This document shows positions 94 to 6,818 of a stretch of DNA of 64,000 nucleotides, piece by piece. Position numbers and translations under genes: made by a program. The stretch is from Arthrobacter mangrovi (GTDB lineage Bacteria; Actinomycetota; Actinomycetes; Actinomycetales; Micrococcaceae), in contig NZ_BRVS01000018.1 of assembly GCF_026011795.1 (NCBI RefSeq), positions 1-64,000 of the forward strand, written 5' to 3'. How positions within the stretch are numbered: position 1 is the first letter of the stretch; each line of letters opens with the position of its first letter. The notes under the pieces were generated by a model. It worked only from the letters and a program-made list of their open reading frames with translations, was not told where the DNA came from and searched no databases.

Positions 94-1077
94 TCAGCCG
101 ACGCTGGGCGCCCGGTTCGGCGGGGTGGGGATCACAACGTTGCCAGTGGTGACATTGCCGGTGTCGGCACTGGCGGCGCTGATGCGGTGCGGCTGTGCCT
201 CAACGGGGAAGGGAGGAATGGACTCCCGGGTTCCAGCGTTCGGCGGGAGGACGACGGTTTCGGTCCAGGACCGCAGTTGTAGTGCGACTTCATGGGCCGT
301 CGGGCGGTTGTCGGGTTCGCGCGCGGTCATCCGGCCCAGGAGTTCCTGCCAGTCGGAGCCGAGGGTTTCGGGGATCGGCGGATCCTTCAGCAGCCTGGCG
401 ACGGCTGATTCCACGATGGGCCCGGGAAAGGCCTTCTCCCCGGTAATGCATTCCAAGAGCACCAAGCCGAGGGAGTAAATGTCCGACGCCGGCGTGACGG
501 GCTGGCTGAGGGCCTGTTCCGGGCTGAGGTAGTTGGCCGTGCCGATGGTCGCTCCATGAACGGTGGCTACCGAGGCATCGACGACGCGGGCGATGCCGAA
601 GTCCGACAGCTTCGGGTGCAGCCGGGTGTCCAGGCTGCCGGTGTTGGCCATCAGGATATTGGCGGGCTTGATGTCCCGGTGCACGACGCCGTTTTCATGG
701 ATGTAGTTGAGGGCATCGGCCAGGTCCGCCCCGATGTTGGCGACGGCTGCCGGCGCAAGCGGTCCGCCTGCCAGCATCTTGCGCAGGTCCTGGCCCTCGA
801 TGAGTTCCATCACCAGATAGTTGCTCATGGTGCCGCTGGAATCCTCGTACAAGCCGGCGTCGAGCAGGGTGACCAGTACCGGGTGGCTCAAGGTGGCCAG
901 CAGCAGGGTCTCGGTATGCTGGCGCCGGTATGCGTCGTCGTCGGGAGTTGTGGGCGTGAACATTTTGACCGCCACGTCCCTGTGCAACGTTTCGTCGAGT
1001 GCGCGGAACACGGTGGCCGCGCCGCCCGTGCCGATGAGTTCGCCAGTCCTGTAGCGACCCCCAAGGAGAATGTCCAC
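94..1077 (-). CDS. Soluble Ser/Thr protein kinase (PknB-like)
   Basis: Hanks-type kinase of about 327 residues. The glycine loop (LIGTGGAATVF, about residues 14-24) is followed by the VAVK lysine near residue 38, the catalytic loop HRDIKPANIL near 136, the metal-binding DFG in SDFGIA, and an activation segment ending GTANYLSPEQ with a phosphorylatable Thr. The kinase fold ends near residue 265. A Pro/Ser/Thr-rich tail of about 60 residues follows. No transmembrane helix or PASTA repeat is visible, so this is a cytosolic kinase, unlike PknB. A TTG at 1080 is possible, but GTG at 1077 is better placed behind GGAGG. Its substrates cannot be read from sequence. It follows the 2-oxoacid dehydrogenase-like operon on the same strand after about 200 bp. 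Confidence 0.9.
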   Translation of the reverse strand: MDILLGGRYRTGELIGTGGAATVFRALDETLHRDVAVKMFTPTTPDDDAYRRQHTETLLLATLSHPVLVTLLDAGLYEDSSGTMSNYLVMELIEGQDLRKMLAGGPLAPAAVANIGADLADALNYIHENGVVHRDIKPANILMANTGSLDTRLHPKLSDFGIARVVDASVATVHGATIGTANYLSPEQALSQPVTPASDIYSLGLVLLECITGEKAFPGPIVESAVARLLKDPPIPETLGSDWQELLGRMTAREPDNRPTAHEVALQLRSWTETVVLPPNAGTRESIPPFPVEAQPHRISAASADTGNVTTGNVVIPTPPNRAPSVG

Positions 1078-1249
1078 CAAGCCTCCACGCCCAGGATGTA
1101 AGTCTGCTGATTTTTCTTAATTCTACGGTACGGCCGAGGCGCCCGGGACCATTTCCCGCCATCGTGAGCAGCGACGCATTGTCTGCGAGGCGAGATGCGT
1201 TGCTGCACGGTGCCAATCCATCAGGGGGTGTCGACAGCCTGCCGTGTCG

Positions 1250-1297
1250 GTAGACCTGGCCGGCGAGGAAGTCGTAGACCTAGCCGGCGAGGAAGTC
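1250..1297. repeat. 24-bp tandem duplication across the hydrolase stop codon
   Basis: Two adjacent 24-bp copies (1250-1273 and 1274-1297) differ at a single base. The inner copy carries the TAG stop of the alpha/beta hydrolase; the outer copy has CAG at the same place. On the minus strand both encode DFLAG, so the duplication is in frame. Confidence 0.85.
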
Positions 1298-2086
1298 GAT
1301 GGCGGCTGTCTTGAAGGCCCGGCTGGTGACCGCGTTGGCGTGGGTCCGGGCCGGGAGCCATTGCAGCTCGGCGCGGGGAGCCAGCTTGGCCAGCTCCGGT
1401 GCCGTCTGTGCCAGCTCGTCGCGTTCACCTGCCACTAGCAGCACGGGCATCCGCGGGACGGCCTCGGAGGGGATGAACGGCTCCGTCTTGATGGCTTCGA
1501 TCATCGTCAACAGGGCAAAAACGTCATTGCCGGGCACCAGCTGTGCCATGCGCAGCAACTCCGCCGTGGAAGGATCGGCGATTTCCGAGCCGTCCGCCAG
1601 ATAACGCTGGGCGGCCGGCAGATCGAAGTCGGCCAAGGGATCGTGGGCGCCGGGCCCGCCCAACACGATCCTGCGGACGAGTTCGGGCTGGGTAGCACCG
1701 AACTCCCACGCCAGACGTGCGCCCAGCGAATAGCCGATCAGGTCCACGCCGGTGGAATCGTCATCGTCCTTCAACGGCCGCACGTGCGCGTTGAGGATCA
1801 GCTGCAGCAGGTCCGCGCGGATCCGGCTAGGCGAATAGGCGTCCATTTCCTCCGGTGCCGGGCTGCCGCCGTGGCCGGGCAGGTCCACGGTCACGACGCG
1901 CCGCCCGGCCTGGGTCAGCGCGGTGATCCAGCCGGCGTCCTCCCAGTTGAGCTTGGCGGAAGAAGCGAAGCCGTGGAGCAGGATGACCGGGCGGTGCGGG
2001 CCGGTGGTTCCCGGCGCGGCCTCGTGGACCCGCACGTTCAGGTGCGGGTCCACGCCCTCCACGGTCTGGTCGCGGTGCCTGCCCAT
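1280..2086 (-). CDS. Alpha/beta-fold hydrolase, possible detached half of an AcoC-type E2
   Basis: 268-residue alpha/beta hydrolase. The oxyanion strand-loop VILLHGFASS is near residues 34-43 and the nucleophile elbow GYSLGA (Ser nucleophile) near residue 118. A late LLVAGERDE segment supplies the usual Asp position, and a terminal TH(A) supplies the candidate His. It is the last gene of the E1alpha-E1beta-lipoyl operon, starting 5 bp after the lipoyl gene stops. In AcoC, the E2 of acetoin dehydrogenase complexes, a lipoyl domain is fused to this same fold. The gene order here looks like that protein split in two. This functional link is inference; a free-standing esterase is the alternative. 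Its stop lies in a 24-bp tandem duplication. Confidence 0.8.
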   Translation of the reverse strand: MGRHRDQTVEGVDPHLNVRVHEAAPGTTGPHRPVILLHGFASSAKLNWEDAGWITALTQAGRRVVTVDLPGHGGSPAPEEMDAYSPSRIRADLLQLILNAHVRPLKDDDDSTGVDLIGYSLGARLAWEFGATQPELVRRIVLGGPGAHDPLADFDLPAAQRYLADGSEIADPSTAELLRMAQLVPGNDVFALLTMIEAIKTEPFIPSEAVPRMPVLLVAGERDELAQTAPELAKLAPRAELQWLPARTHANAVTSRAFKTAAIDFLAG

Positions 2087-2091
2087 GCCGC

Positions 2092-2421
2092 TCAGTCCTC
2101 GTCCAGGTTGGCGGTCAGGCGGACGCGGCGCTTGGGCGCCTGCTCTTGGGGTACGGTCCCGACGATGCCGGCGGTGTCATCGGGGACTTGGAAGACGATC
2201 AGCGGTTCACCAACCTTGATGATGTCACCGGGTTCGCCGTAGACCCGCACGACCTTGCCGGCCTGCGGGGAGGGAAGCTCCACGGCGGACTTAGTGGTCT
2301 CGACCTCGACCAGCGGGTGGTTCCGCTCGACCTGTTCGCCCTCGGCGACGAGCCACTCCAGCACGGTTGCCTCGATCAGGCCCTCGCCAAGGTCCGGGAG
2401 GGGAAAGGAAATTTCAGCCAC
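2092..2421 (-). CDS. Stand-alone lipoyl-domain protein (E2-like carrier)
   Basis: 109-residue protein consisting of one lipoyl domain (about residues 3-76) and a short charged tail. The motif VETTKSAVE places the lipoylated Lys near residue 42, and the fold starts with ISFPLPDLGEG as in E2 subunits. A normal E2 has 400-500 residues with a subunit-binding domain and a catalytic domain carrying HxxxDG; both are absent here and in the downstream frame. The GTG start at 2421 overlaps the E1beta stop by 8 bp (GTGGCTGA), showing translational coupling. A longer ATG-initiated reading from 2535 would run inside E1beta and is unlikely. Role: swinging-arm carrier for the E1 encoded upstream. Confidence 0.88.
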   Translation of the reverse strand: MAEISFPLPDLGEGLIEATVLEWLVAEGEQVERNHPLVEVETTKSAVELPSPQAGKVVRVYGEPGDIIKVGEPLIVFQVPDDTAGIVGTVPQEQAPKRRVRLTANLDED

Positions 2422-3568
2422 GGCGATACTCCAATACTCGCTGGATCCCGAACAGGATGCGGTCAATGTTGGGAATGTACTCGTCCTCGAGGTCTCCTGA
2501 GGGATACGGTACGTCGAAACCTGTAACCCGCTCAACGGGTGCTTTCAGTGTGGCAAAGCAGTGCTGCGTGATCAGCGCGGCTACTTCCGCCCCGAGGCCG
2601 GAGGTCAGGGGTGCTTCGTGGACGACGACGGCGCGGCGCGTCTTGGTGACGGAGGCCGCCAGTGCTTCGGCGTCGATCGGCTTGAGCCAGCGCAGGTCCA
2701 GAACTTCGATGTCGATCCCGTCTTCGGCTGCGAGTTCGGCAACCTGAACGCAACGGGCGACCATGGCGCCCCAAGCCACCAGCGTCAGATGCCGGCCCTC
2801 GCGCACAACGCGGGCGCCTTCGGGGGAATAACCGGTGCCGGCGGTGTCCACCGGACCCTTCTGCCAGTAGCGGGACTTGGGCTCCATGAAGACCACCGGG
2901 TCAGGCCTGCCGGCGGCGAACTTGAGCAGGTGGTACGCCTCGTGGGGGCTCGACGGTGAGACCACCTTGAGCCCTGGCACGTGCGCAAAGAGCGCCTCGA
3001 GCGACTCCCCGTGGTGCTCCGGGGCGCGGATGCCGCCGAAGCTCGGCACGCGCAGGGTGATCGGCATGGGCAGCTTGCCGCGGCTGCGGTAGTTCATGCG
3101 GCCGACCTGGCAGATGATCTGGTTGACCGCAGGGTAGGCGAAGCCATCGAACTGCACTTCGGGAATCGGGTGGTAGCCGGCCATGGCCAGGCCGACGGAC
3201 ATGCCGAGGATGCCGGATTCGGCGAGCGGGGTGTCGAAGACCCGGTTTTCGCCGTACTTGCGTTGCAGGCCGTCGGTGATGCGGAAGACGCCGCCGAGCT
3301 GGCCGACGTCCTCGCCCAGGACCATGGCCTTGGGGTCGGCCTCTAGGGTCTCGGAGAGGGCGCGGTTGAGGGCCTGCTGCATGGACAGGGTCTCGATGGC
3401 CGGTCCTGCGTCCGCCGGCTCTTCAGTAGCGGGGGCGTCGGCGGCGGGGATCTGGCGTTGGCCGTCCGAGGCGGACTCGATGGTCTCGACGGATTCCAGC
3501 TGCGCAGCGGCATCCCGGGTGTTGTTGCGCGCTGCTTCAAGGTCGCTGAGGGTGGTGTGCTCAGACAT
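2414..3568 (-). CDS. 2-oxoacid dehydrogenase E1 component, beta subunit
   Basis: 384 residues; the beta half of a heterotetrameric thiamine-diphosphate E1. The core begins near residue 60 with LSMQQALNRALSETL. It is followed by VLGEDVGQLGGVF (cofactor-activating Glu), FDTPLAESG, and EVQFDGFAYPAVNQI; the C-terminal transketolase domain ends with GLGAEV and GFDVPYP. The first 58 residues are an acidic Ala/Glu/Ser-rich extension not usual for this family. GGAGGAG precedes the ATG inside the end of E1alpha, which overlaps by 8 bp. Similarity of style is to branched-chain (BkdB), pyruvate or acetoin E1beta, and substrate cannot be told from sequence alone. No E3 gene is nearby. Confidence 0.9.
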   Translation of the reverse strand: MSEHTTLSDLEAARNNTRDAAAQLESVETIESASDGQRQIPAADAPATEEPADAGPAIETLSMQQALNRALSETLEADPKAMVLGEDVGQLGGVFRITDGLQRKYGENRVFDTPLAESGILGMSVGLAMAGYHPIPEVQFDGFAYPAVNQIICQVGRMNYRSRGKLPMPITLRVPSFGGIRAPEHHGESLEALFAHVPGLKVVSPSSPHEAYHLLKFAAGRPDPVVFMEPKSRYWQKGPVDTAGTGYSPEGARVVREGRHLTLVAWGAMVARCVQVAELAAEDGIDIEVLDLRWLKPIDAEALAASVTKTRRAVVVHEAPLTSGLGAEVAALITQHCFATLKAPVERVTGFDVPYPSGDLEDEYIPNIDRILFGIQRVLEYRRG

Positions 3569-4589
3569 GTTCGGACTCCTCCCGCCAGGCGCGGGCCTGG
3601 GCCTTCAAAGCTGTTGTCGGTTCCTGGTAGACGAAGTCGAACATCTCCGTTCCCGGGCGTGACCCCAGGTTGATGATGCCTTCGCGGATGCGTTCCTCCT
3701 CCGCTTTGGCATCGGCGAGCGCTTCGCCGAAGAAGGCCTCGTCGGCAAGGCCCTCTGCCGTAAGGTGTGCGCGCATGCGCTGGATCGGGTCCTCGCCTGC
3801 GTCGGCGCGCTCGGCCTCGAGGGTGCGGTACCGCCCGGGGTCGTCACTGGTGGAGTGCGGTCCGCGGCGGTAGGTCATGGCCTCGACGACGGACGGTCCC
3901 TTGCCCGAGCGGGCGTGCGCGAGTGCGGCCGCTGTAGCCTTGGCGACGGCAACGACGTCGTTCCCGTCAACCTGCAGGGAAGGAATGCCGTACCCGGCCG
4001 CCCGGGCCGCAACGGACCCGCCCGCCACCTGGCGTTCCGTCGGGACGGAAATGGCCCAGCCGTTGTTCTGGATGAAGAAGACCACCGGGGCCTTCATGAC
4101 GGCGGCGAAGTTCATCGCCTCGTGGACGTCGCCCTGGGAGCTGGCACCGTCGCCGAAGTACGTGATGGCGGCGCCGCCGGTTCCGTCCATGGTCTGGGCA
4201 TGGGCCCACCCGACGGCGTGCAGCACGGAGCCGGCCACGACAGCCTGGATGGGCGCGAAGCGCGAAGCTACCGGGTCATAGAGCCCGCCGTGCCAGGTCG
4301 CTTTGTGCGTGGCCATGTACTCCACCATGTCGACGCCGACAGTGCGGGCCACGCCCATCTCGCGGTAGGTGGGGAACACGAAGTCGCGGGACATGTCCAG
4401 CACGTAGGCGCTGCCGACCTGTGCCGCCTCCTGCCCCAGTTCGGGGGCGTAGCCGGGAATCAGGCCCTGCCGCTGCCAGCGGATGGCCGACTCGTCCAGG
4501 TGGCGCACGGCCACCATGAGCCGGTACAGCTGGCGCTGGTCGTCGTCGTTCAGGACAGCGTGGTCAAGGCCAGGCAATTCATCGGCCAT
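3561..4589 (-). CDS. 2-oxoacid dehydrogenase E1 component, alpha subunit
   Basis: 342 residues from an ATG at 4589 with AGGAGG 8 bp upstream; the longer frame from 4682 has no such site. The thiamine-diphosphate motif runs from YFGDGASSQGDVHEA to the NN of IQNNGW (about residues 145-177). FPTYREMG and the segment with YRRGPHSTSDDP (the phosphorylation-loop region of E1alpha proteins) are also present. It decarboxylates a 2-oxoacid and passes the acyl group to a lipoyl arm. First gene of a four-gene operon. The 181 bp upstream contain a large palindrome (4729-4760) and a second smaller one (4669-4682), which suggests repressor or activator control. Confidence 0.9.
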   Translation of the reverse strand: MADELPGLDHAVLNDDDQRQLYRLMVAVRHLDESAIRWQRQGLIPGYAPELGQEAAQVGSAYVLDMSRDFVFPTYREMGVARTVGVDMVEYMATHKATWHGGLYDPVASRFAPIQAVVAGSVLHAVGWAHAQTMDGTGGAAITYFGDGASSQGDVHEAMNFAAVMKAPVVFFIQNNGWAISVPTERQVAGGSVAARAAGYGIPSLQVDGNDVVAVAKATAAALAHARSGKGPSVVEAMTYRRGPHSTSDDPGRYRTLEAERADAGEDPIQRMRAHLTAEGLADEAFFGEALADAKAEEERIREGIINLGSRPGTEMFDFVYQEPTTALKAQARAWREESEHV

Positions 4590-4770: not shown

Positions 4771-6180
4771 TCAGCTCATGCGGGCAGGATCGGCGGTCCG
4801 CTGCTTCCGGTGGACGGCTACTCTGCTCAGCAGGGCAATCACGCCAATCAGGGCGGCGGTGCTGCCGAGCTGGACCGCTGTGGCCGGCGAGAAGAGGCCG
4901 ATGACGATAATCCCGGCCAGCAGCGCGAGGCCGATGCCGCTTGTCCAGGGGTAGCCGGGGAGTTTCATCGGCAGCGTTTCCCCGTCGCGCACAGCACGTC
5001 TGCGGAGGATGAGCTGTGACAGCAACACCATTCCCCACACTGCCAGGCAGGTGGAGCCGACAAAGTTCAGCAGCACCGGGAGCACCTTTTCCGGGAACAC
5101 GAGCTCCAGTACGGTGGCGGCGAAGCCGAAGGCCACCGAGGCGAGCACGGCAGGGACGGGGACGCCGCGGGAGGTGATTTCCTGCAGCCTGGCCGGGGCG
5201 TCCCGGCGACGGGAGAGCGAGAAAATCATGCGGGACGCGCCGTAGAGGTTCGCGTTGAGGGCGGACAGCAGGGCGACGGCGGCGATCATCGTCATGGCAA
5301 CGTCGGCGCCGGGGATGCGGGCCTCGGCGAGGACGGCCGCGAAGGGCGAGGCCAGGGCCGGCGAATCCCACGGGACCACCAGGGTGATGACCAGGACGGA
5401 GCCGACATAGAAGACCAGGATGCGCCAGACCACCGTTTTGACTGCCCGGGCCACGCTGCGCTGCGGGTTCCGGGTCTCGGCCGCGGCCACGGCGACGATC
5501 TCGGTGCCTCCGAAGGCGAAGATGACCACCAGCAGCCCGGTGGCGATGCCGCCGAGACCTGCCGGGGCGAACCCGTCCGTTCCCAGGATGTTCGCCAGGC
5601 CGGGCGATGGCGACTGCGGCAGCCAGCCGGCCATCAGGGCTACGCCGACCGCCAGGAAGGCCAAGATGGCCGCGACCTTGATGATGGCGAACCAGAATTC
5701 GAACTCGCCGTAGTTGTTCACGCCGAGCAGGTTGACGGCCGTGAAGAAAATCATGAACGCCAGGGCCAGCAGCCACACAGGCAGCCCCGGCCAGACGGAT
5801 GCGATCAGCCCGGCGGCACCCACCGCCTCCGCCGCGATGACAATGACCAGTTGGCCCCACCAGAGCCAGCCGATAGTGGCTCCCGCCGTGGGGCCCAGCG
5901 CCTTCTCCGCGTACGTGGAGAAGGCTCCGCTGCTGGGATGGGCGGCGGCCATCTCGCCCAGGGCTCCCATCACGATGATCACCAGGGTTCCGGCGATCAG
6001 GTAGGACACCAGCACTGCGGGTCCGGCCGCCTGGACCCCTGCTCCGGAGCCGAGGAAGAGGCCCGCTCCGATGGCGCTGCCGAGTCCCATCATGATCAGC
6101 TGCCGCGGCTTCATGGATTGGCCGAGGCCGGTGGGATGGGCGCCGGTAGACTGCCCGGACGCACGGGGGAATCTCGTCAT
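4771..6180 (-). CDS. APC-family amino-acid permease
   Basis: 469 residues from an ATG at 6180 behind AGGAAA. The N-terminal hallmark GLGSAIGAGLFLGSG (helix 1) lies near residues 32-46, and about twelve hydrophobic segments follow. Helix 2-3 has GALGEMAAAHPSSGAFSTYA and helix 6 has FAFGGTEIVAVAAAE, both typical of the AAT branch (GABA, proline, aromatic amino-acid permeases). It imports an amino acid by proton symport at the plasma membrane. It is divergent from the Lrp gene at 6327 and lies upstream of the E1 operon on the same strand, so a catabolic pairing (import amino acid, transaminate, oxidise the 2-oxoacid) is plausible but inferred. Confidence 0.88.
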   Translation of the reverse strand: MTRFPRASGQSTGAHPTGLGQSMKPRQLIMMGLGSAIGAGLFLGSGAGVQAAGPAVLVSYLIAGTLVIIVMGALGEMAAAHPSSGAFSTYAEKALGPTAGATIGWLWWGQLVIVIAAEAVGAAGLIASVWPGLPVWLLALAFMIFFTAVNLLGVNNYGEFEFWFAIIKVAAILAFLAVGVALMAGWLPQSPSPGLANILGTDGFAPAGLGGIATGLLVVIFAFGGTEIVAVAAAETRNPQRSVARAVKTVVWRILVFYVGSVLVITLVVPWDSPALASPFAAVLAEARIPGADVAMTMIAAVALLSALNANLYGASRMIFSLSRRRDAPARLQEITSRGVPVPAVLASVAFGFAATVLELVFPEKVLPVLLNFVGSTCLAVWGMVLLSQLILRRRAVRDGETLPMKLPGYPWTSGIGLALLAGIIVIGLFSPATAVQLGSTAALIGVIALLSRVAVHRKQRTADPARMS

Positions 6181-6326: not shown

Positions 6327-6818
6327 ATGAATATCGATTCGCTGGATTCGGATATCGTCACGCTGTTCAGTCAGGACCCGAGAATGTCCGTCCTGGAAGC
6401 CTCCCGGGTCCTCAAAGTGGCCCGTGCCACGGTACAGGCCCGGCTCGACAAGATGCAACGTGCCGGGGTGATCGCTGGGTGGGGTCCGCGCCTGGAGCCG
6501 GCCGAACTCGGCTACGTCGTGAAGGCCTACTGCTCGCTTGTCATCCGGCAGGAGATCGGCCACGACGCCGTGGCTGCGGCGCTCGCACGCATTCCCGAGG
6601 TCTTGGAGCTGCACACTGTGTCCGGAGAGAGCGACCTACTCGCCTGCGTGGTCGCCAGGTCCAACGCCGACTTGCAGCGGGTGCTGGACGAAATCACCGG
6701 CACCAATACCGTGCTTCGGTCCTCCTCGGTGATTGTCTTGAATAGCCACTTCGACAGCCGGACGCTGCCTTTGGTGCAGGCTGTGGCCGGGAATCCGGAC
6801 GCCGGGCCGCAGGGATAG
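6327..6818 (+). CDS. Lrp/AsnC-family transcriptional regulator
   Basis: 163 residues. A helix-turn-helix (about residues 5-50: LDSDIVTLFSQDPRMSVLEAS, then RATVQARLDKMQRAGVI) is followed by an AsnC ligand-binding (RAM) domain with YCSLVIRQEIG and SGESDLLACVVA. ATG at 6327 is preceded by GAGG; the open frame extends upstream without a ribosome site. The gene is divergent from the permease, with 146 bp between starts, the usual arrangement for an Lrp regulator and its target. It may also act on the palindrome upstream of E1alpha. The ligand is probably an amino acid or 2-oxoacid; nothing in the sequence fixes which. Confidence 0.9.
   Translation: MNIDSLDSDIVTLFSQDPRMSVLEASRVLKVARATVQARLDKMQRAGVIAGWGPRLEPAELGYVVKAYCSLVIRQEIGHDAVAAALARIPEVLELHTVSGESDLLACVVARSNADLQRVLDEITGTNTVLRSSSVIVLNSHFDSRTLPLVQAVAGNPDAGPQG

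Follow-up and report, generated by a model that had tools for sequence, protein, structure and literature searches.

A conserved actinobacterial cassette of a 2-oxoacid dehydrogenase E1 pair, a free-standing lipoyl carrier and an alpha/beta hydrolase: a possible two-protein E2

The window analysed here comprises 64,000 nucleotides at the start of contig C18 (NZ_BRVS01000018.1) in the 4.4-Mb genome of Arthrobacter mangrovi. Open reading frame positions read from the window place four genes on its minus strand in the order E1alpha and E1beta of a 2-oxoacid dehydrogenase, a lone lipoyl protein (the carrier) and an alpha/beta hydrolase (Table 1). The two E1 genes overlap by 8 bp, E1beta and the lipoyl gene overlap by a further 8 bp, and 5 bp separate the lipoyl gene from the hydrolase gene. 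An earlier description made from the DNA letters alone (the sequence-only reading) had given these four frames and junctions and had claimed that the operon holds neither an acyltransferase domain nor a dihydrolipoamide dehydrogenase (E3). Both claims were confirmed: none of the four proteins has a Pfam match to the subunit-binding domain or to the core (PF00198) of a dihydrolipoamide acyltransferase (E2), and no E3 gene lies inside the operon.

The E1alpha protein scored 392 bits against TIGR03181, below the 411-bit cut-off of that family, and its closest solved relatives are a Bacillus-type pyruvate dehydrogenase (PDH) E1alpha (210 bits) and a branched-chain E1alpha (186 bits). E1beta has an N-terminal extension of about 55 residues ahead of its first Pfam domain, and coverage of this extension by matches varies among relatives. 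The lipoyl gene starts with GTG, seven bases downstream of a GGAG. Its product shares with canonical E2 proteins a lipoyl domain with a lysine, K44, that is predicted to be lipoylable, and ends without their other two domains. Both K44 and the tail residues are invariant in 11 of 11 sequences from three families, the tail after the lipoyl domain being conserved as GI(V/I)GxVP...RRVRL. Across 35 cassette loci the carriers are 106-114 residues long and are encoded apart from the hydrolase, as in the window. A similar stretch follows the lipoyl domain in three full-length E2 proteins of the same genome (NVLIGYG, PLVGSGP and AVLVGYG, each followed by arginine-rich letters), while it is not evident in the E2 on contig C2 (four of the six lipoyl-bearing E2 frames were extracted). 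Because three E2 proteins share this stretch, the carrier looks like an E2 stripped of its subunit-binding and acyltransferase domains.

In the hydrolase, residues H38, G39, S120, D223 and H249 are invariant in 45 sequences, the window's included. S120, D223 and H249 make up a probable catalytic triad, in which each residue's role was assigned from its place in the fold. The predicted model has a predicted local distance difference test (pLDDT) score of 91.9 and was assigned by Foldseek to the alpha/beta hydrolase fold; fold and PDB searches returned generic alpha/beta hydrolases only.

The four-gene order is present in 10 of 10 genomes of the same genus, counting the window's own, and in 79 of 80 loci from named records, which are the best 80 of 273 relatives and overlap with the genome samples below. 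The 80th locus lies on a 3.6-kb contig and has three genes. Nearly all of these best 80 loci are titled with Micrococcaceae genera, and one is titled as an Acidobacteria metagenome-assembled genome. Among 149 sampled Micrococcaceae genomes (threshold E <= 1e-30), the lipoyl gene was found in 51 and the hydrolase in 96. A strong hydrolase match stands directly downstream of the lipoyl gene in 49 of the 51, and the remaining two genomes, which belong to one genus, carry a diverged hydrolase (33-34% identity) at the same spot.

A wider-spread search of the order matched 15 of 297 genomes at E <= 1e-24. In a single genome outside the family (G267, from another family of the order) the match was full-length and the frame short, and two more (G387 and G080) matched in frames of 558 and 529 residues. 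In the class sample of 296 genomes, the 18 matches at the same threshold were the window, G267, 14 members of a family belonging to another order (f35) and two full-length E2 proteins. The order E1alpha-E1beta-lipoyl-hydrolase recurs in all 14 f35 loci and in G267, and an Lrp-type match of 26-29% identity lies upstream in 11 of the 14. When f35 was searched with its own hydrolase, 30 of 150 genomes were positive at E <= 1e-30, and in every one of the 30 (11 of which are among the 14 loci) the lipoyl and E1beta genes adjoin the hydrolase. At the level of the phylum (346 genomes), the 18 matches besides the window all lie in open frames of at least 327 residues and, judged by frame length alone, were read as full-length E2 proteins. 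Because the order is kept in 79 of the 80 best named loci, in 14 of 14 and in 30 of 30 f35 loci, a chance neighbourhood was rejected. Conservation of the gene order, which the sequence-only reading had singled out for checking, therefore held in the same-genus, named and f35 loci.

In a tree of E1beta proteins, the 27 cassette sequences, the window's included (12 from Micrococcaceae, one from the second family of the order and 14 from the second order), fall on one side of a branch from 22 canonical E1beta fragments with an SH-like approximate likelihood ratio (SH-aLRT) support of 98; the tree was built by a quick method and drew a long-branch warning among the 22 canonical rows. By their sequences, the cassette E1beta proteins form one distinct clade.

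A full-length E2 elsewhere in the genome that serves this E1 had been named in advance as a finding that would speak against a two-part E2. Seven E2-core matches were found, all on other contigs; six are in lipoyl-bearing frames and one is in a 1269-residue frame with no lipoyl match, which we take to be OdhA/KGD. Since five of the resident E2 proteins stand beside E1beta homologues (48-53% identical to the cassette E1beta at three, 38% at two), each of these already has its own E1 partner. Apart from the OdhA/KGD-like frame the genome holds no spare E2 core. On other contigs, one E3 match (contig C2) exceeds the curated cut-off; three further long ones, at 270-369 bits, fall below it.

An amino acid permease gene lies upstream of E1alpha, followed by a divergent Lrp/AsnC-type regulator. 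The frames beyond these two read as nudix and then nadA, and downstream of the hydrolase, in the window and in some relatives, is a frame whose translation looks like a Ser/Thr protein kinase; these three names come from reading the translations.

Table 1. Coordinates of the cassette, its neighbours and the related loci mentioned in the text (window positions unless a locus handle is given)
Feature	Position	Strand	Length (aa)	Match or remark
E1alpha of 2-oxoacid dehydrogenase	3561..4589	-	342	PF00676 (E1_dh), 267 bits
E1beta	2414..3568	-	384	PF02779 (Transket_pyr) and PF02780 (Transketolase_C), from residue 60
Lone lipoyl carrier	2092..2421	-	109	PF00364 (Biotin_lipoyl), 64 bits, sole match above cut-off
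Alpha/beta hydrolase	1280..2086	-	268	PF00561 (Abhydrolase_1), 73 bits
Amino acid permease	4771..6180	-		PF00324, 345 bits
Lrp/AsnC-type regulator, divergent	6327..6818	+		PF01037, 61 bits, residues from 6339 on
Frame reading as Ser/Thr protein kinase	94-1080			
Diverged hydrolase behind lipoyl gene	L132:6906-7634			
Diverged hydrolase behind lipoyl gene	L133:7796-8509			
Hydrolase-only loci fetched	L112-L131, e.g. L112:6689-7513			
Hydrolase-HpcH/HpaI fusion frame	L041:1402-3048			
Hydrolase-HpcH/HpaI fusion frame	L042:649-2271			
Hydrolase-HpcH/HpaI fusion frame	L045:646-2286			

Ordinary 2-oxoacid dehydrogenase complexes have their lipoyl domain attached to an acyltransferase core, whereas the cassette has a free carrier and a hydrolase instead. 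Our preferred interpretation is a two-protein (split) E2, in which the hydrolase removes the acyl group from the carrier and passes it to coenzyme A (CoA) or to water; we regard the case for this function as evenly balanced. The step from anatomy to chemistry is taken because of two precedents considered below, the architecture of AcoC and the lipoyl thioesterase ABHD11. The catalytic steps that we infer, including contact between hydrolase and carrier, would begin with decarboxylation of a 2-oxoacid by E1alpha/E1beta and reductive transfer of the acyl group to the small carrier at its lipoyl lysine. The hydrolase serine would then attack the acyl-lipoyl thioester, replacing the missing acyltransferase core, and would hand the acyl group to CoA, as in AcoC, or to water, after which a resident E3 would reoxidise the dihydrolipoyl group of the carrier. 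Because the Lrp-type regulator and the permease adjoin the cassette, this genetic context suggests that the substrate is probably an amino-acid-derived 2-oxoacid; BkdR offers a parallel for the Lrp-type regulator. An oxidation that does without CoA altogether, with the hydrolase freeing the acid from the carrier, E3 yielding NADH and acyl-CoA neither made nor spent, is a tentative proposal that we find doubtful.

Several observations weigh against a split E2. The hydrolase profile scores do not place the protein closer to AcoC (51 bits) than to PcaDC (52 bits) or MenH (62 bits). Within Micrococcaceae, a search at E <= 1e-30 gave no lipoyl gene in 47 of the 96 genomes with a hydrolase, although seven of these 47 have only a hydrolase of about 40% identity and may carry paralogues. 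E1alpha, E1beta and lipoyl genes were found in none of 20 hydrolase-only loci fetched from 19 of the 47 genomes, the search covering those loci. In these solo hydrolases the triad is intact, as are most of the conserved residues (164 distinct hydrolases were kept for this comparison); the less well kept positions are P78 and Y84 (75%) and P185 and P245 (60%), three long-branch rows being among the sequences compared. The ratio of nonsynonymous to synonymous substitution (omega) among five pairs of solo hydrolases is 0.08-0.28, with a median of 0.20, which indicates purifying selection; six pairs of cassette hydrolases gave 0.06-0.27, with a median of 0.12. Relaxed selection after loss of E1 and lipoyl genes was considered and rejected, the solo values being just slightly higher, from few pairs, some with saturated synonymous divergence (dS). 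With the triad kept and omega low, the hydrolase can therefore serve without the carrier. Distance correlations over 53 loci were uninformative: hydrolase and lipoyl protein are linked no more closely than the hydrolase and the adjoining nudix gene (hydrolase-lipoyl, 0.87; hydrolase-nudix, 0.91; hydrolase-Lrp, 0.88), and the intended control, nadA, was probably cut by locus ends. In alignment A3, L227 was skipped and 79 entries were thinned to 54.

Loss of linkage between the genes in relatives had likewise been named beforehand as evidence against a joint function, and such loss was seen in part: nearly half of the hydrolase-bearing Micrococcaceae genomes are without the lipoyl gene. The tie in Micrococcaceae looks one-sided: the hydrolase occurs without the lipoyl gene, and lipoyl and E1 genes without a hydrolase were not found there. 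For f35, the loci covered (14 of 14 and 30 of 30) point to a two-sided tie. An Lrp gene is present in 1 of the 20 hydrolase-only loci versus 19 of 20 lipoyl-positive loci and so mostly comes and goes together with the E1 and lipoyl genes, whereas the permease is present in some and missing in other loci of both kinds. Synteny with nadA and nudix persists in 15 of the 20 hydrolase-only loci. In one of the 20, L127 (genome G248), both Lrp and permease are retained although E1 and lipoyl genes were not found. Five genera (g2, g3, g62, g79 and g81) each hold both states, with and without the lipoyl gene, and this is a safer statement than the 11 state changes that parsimony gives within Micrococcaceae (L128, L129 and L131 left out), counted on a tree in which 28 forks were open and the bootstraps had not settled.

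Farther afield, hydrolase relatives of about 40% identity have mixed gene neighbours. The order's other families hold relatives at or below this identity, and neither a lipoyl nor an E1beta gene lies within about 1.5 kb of these. In a midpoint-rooted tree of 80 of the 164 distinct hydrolases (24 of the 108 from cassettes), whose bootstraps had not settled, the f35 and Micrococcaceae hydrolases are set apart from 21 of 22 relatives of about 40% identity with support of 95/88. In all three long frames scanned, out of four, a relative of about 40% identity is fused to an HpcH/HpaI aldolase/citrate-lyase domain, a hint and nothing further that the wider hydrolase family deals in acyl-thioester chemistry.

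Three rival explanations were considered. The carrier might act in trans, delivering the acyl group from E1 to a resident complex that supplies the acyltransferase core and E3, with the hydrolase a mere passenger of the operon. E2 frames with a lipoyl domain do number six in the genome, and a seventh E2 core stands in a frame with no lipoyl match; actinobacterial OdhA is described as taking lipoyl groups from AceF (PMC10415282); and a passenger could persist without the lipoyl gene as it does in 47 of 96 Micrococcaceae genomes. However, the carrier has no subunit-binding domain, the resident E2 proteins have E1 partners of their own, at 48-53% (three) and 38% (two) E1beta identity, and the hydrolase-lipoyl pairing is kept 30 times out of 30 in f35, so we consider this unlikely.

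Retention of the hydrolase after loss of E1 and lipoyl genes would be explained if it were a repair or editing enzyme that strips the carrier, and perhaps other lipoyl proteins too, of acyl groups that are wrong or stuck. The solo hydrolases with their triad would fit such a role, as would ABHD11 of mitochondria, which removes lipoyl-bound glutaryl and spares glutaryl-CoA (PMC12643935). Repair appears quite improbable to us, however, because it leaves the main acyl acceptor unexplained and because in f35, where other lipoyl complexes are expected, none of the 30 hydrolase genes found stands without the lipoyl and E1beta genes. We give equally little credence to an unrelated esterase or thioesterase that is merely co-transcribed. 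Its fold is indeed generic, and the distant relatives away from lipoyl and E1beta genes, some of them HpcH/HpaI-fused, are what this would predict, but the four-gene order is kept across two orders while the neighbours change, and again all 30 f35 hydrolases found are paired.

No published description of the cluster was found in searches of open-licence PubMed Central (PMC) papers. The distinct E1 clade with a free-standing carrier and hydrolase spans two actinobacterial orders. Should the split E2 be correct with hydrolysis as the outcome, it would represent another way of ending 2-oxoacid oxidation, and a CoA-independent route, if true, would lead from a 2-oxoacid to the next shorter acid. 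If the hydrolase is the working partner, the cassette would offer a small, easily purified system for the action of alpha/beta hydrolases on lipoyl thioesters, a question that bears on both AcoC and ABHD11.

Among known systems, the AcoC-type E2 of acetoin dehydrogenase (NF011457 / PRK14875) is like the cassette in combining a lipoyl domain with an alpha/beta hydrolase; in AcoC the acyl group goes to CoA. Positions 8-81 of its profile match the cassette lipoyl protein and positions 125-231 the hydrolase, and the cassette hydrolase has the complete Ser-Asp-His triad of AcoC, with roles assigned by position. In contrast to the single chain of AcoC, the cassette has two genes, and its parts score 51.5 and 51.2 bits against a cut-off of 307 bits. 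The proposal of the sequence-only reading that these genes are a split AcoC-like E2 is supported in part, by the two-part anatomy, the matches to the N- and C-terminal parts of AcoC, the order kept over two orders and the pairing in 30 of 30 f35 loci; it finds no support in the hydrolase scores, which are no better for AcoC than for PcaDC or MenH, or in the 47 of 96 Micrococcaceae genomes without the lipoyl gene. The fused homologues that it proposed to look for did not appear above the AcoC cut-off in 246 class genomes, a weak negative, with seven candidates scored per genome and none of 14 control genomes passing. In one f35 genome (G458) the profile spans the lipoyl and hydrolase frames; because two TGA codons lie inside, this match fits neighbouring genes, and it was rejected as a fusion.

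The E1alpha-E1beta-E2 sets of the same genome, of the branched-chain/PDH kind, share with the cassette an E1 pair and a lipoyl domain, and three of their E2 proteins have, like the carrier, a VG(Y/S)G...arginine-rich stretch after that domain. They differ in that the cassette carrier ends after this stretch and the cassette E1beta belongs to its own clade. Human ABHD11 is a mitochondrial serine hydrolase and glutaryl-lipoyl thioesterase (PMC12643935; PMC7426941) that takes glutaryl off lipoyl without hydrolysing glutaryl-CoA (PMC12643935). Its attack on a lipoyl thioester as a serine hydrolase is a precedent for the chemistry proposed here, although ABHD11 serves in the repair of complexes that have a full E2, and the likeness drawn is one of function. 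Finally, actinobacterial OdhA/KGD relies on lipoyl groups supplied in trans by AceF (PMC10415282), and so resembles the cassette in having a lipoyl group serve another polypeptide; OdhA/KGD, however, retains the acyltransferase and lacks the lipoyl domain, and the cassette is the reverse.

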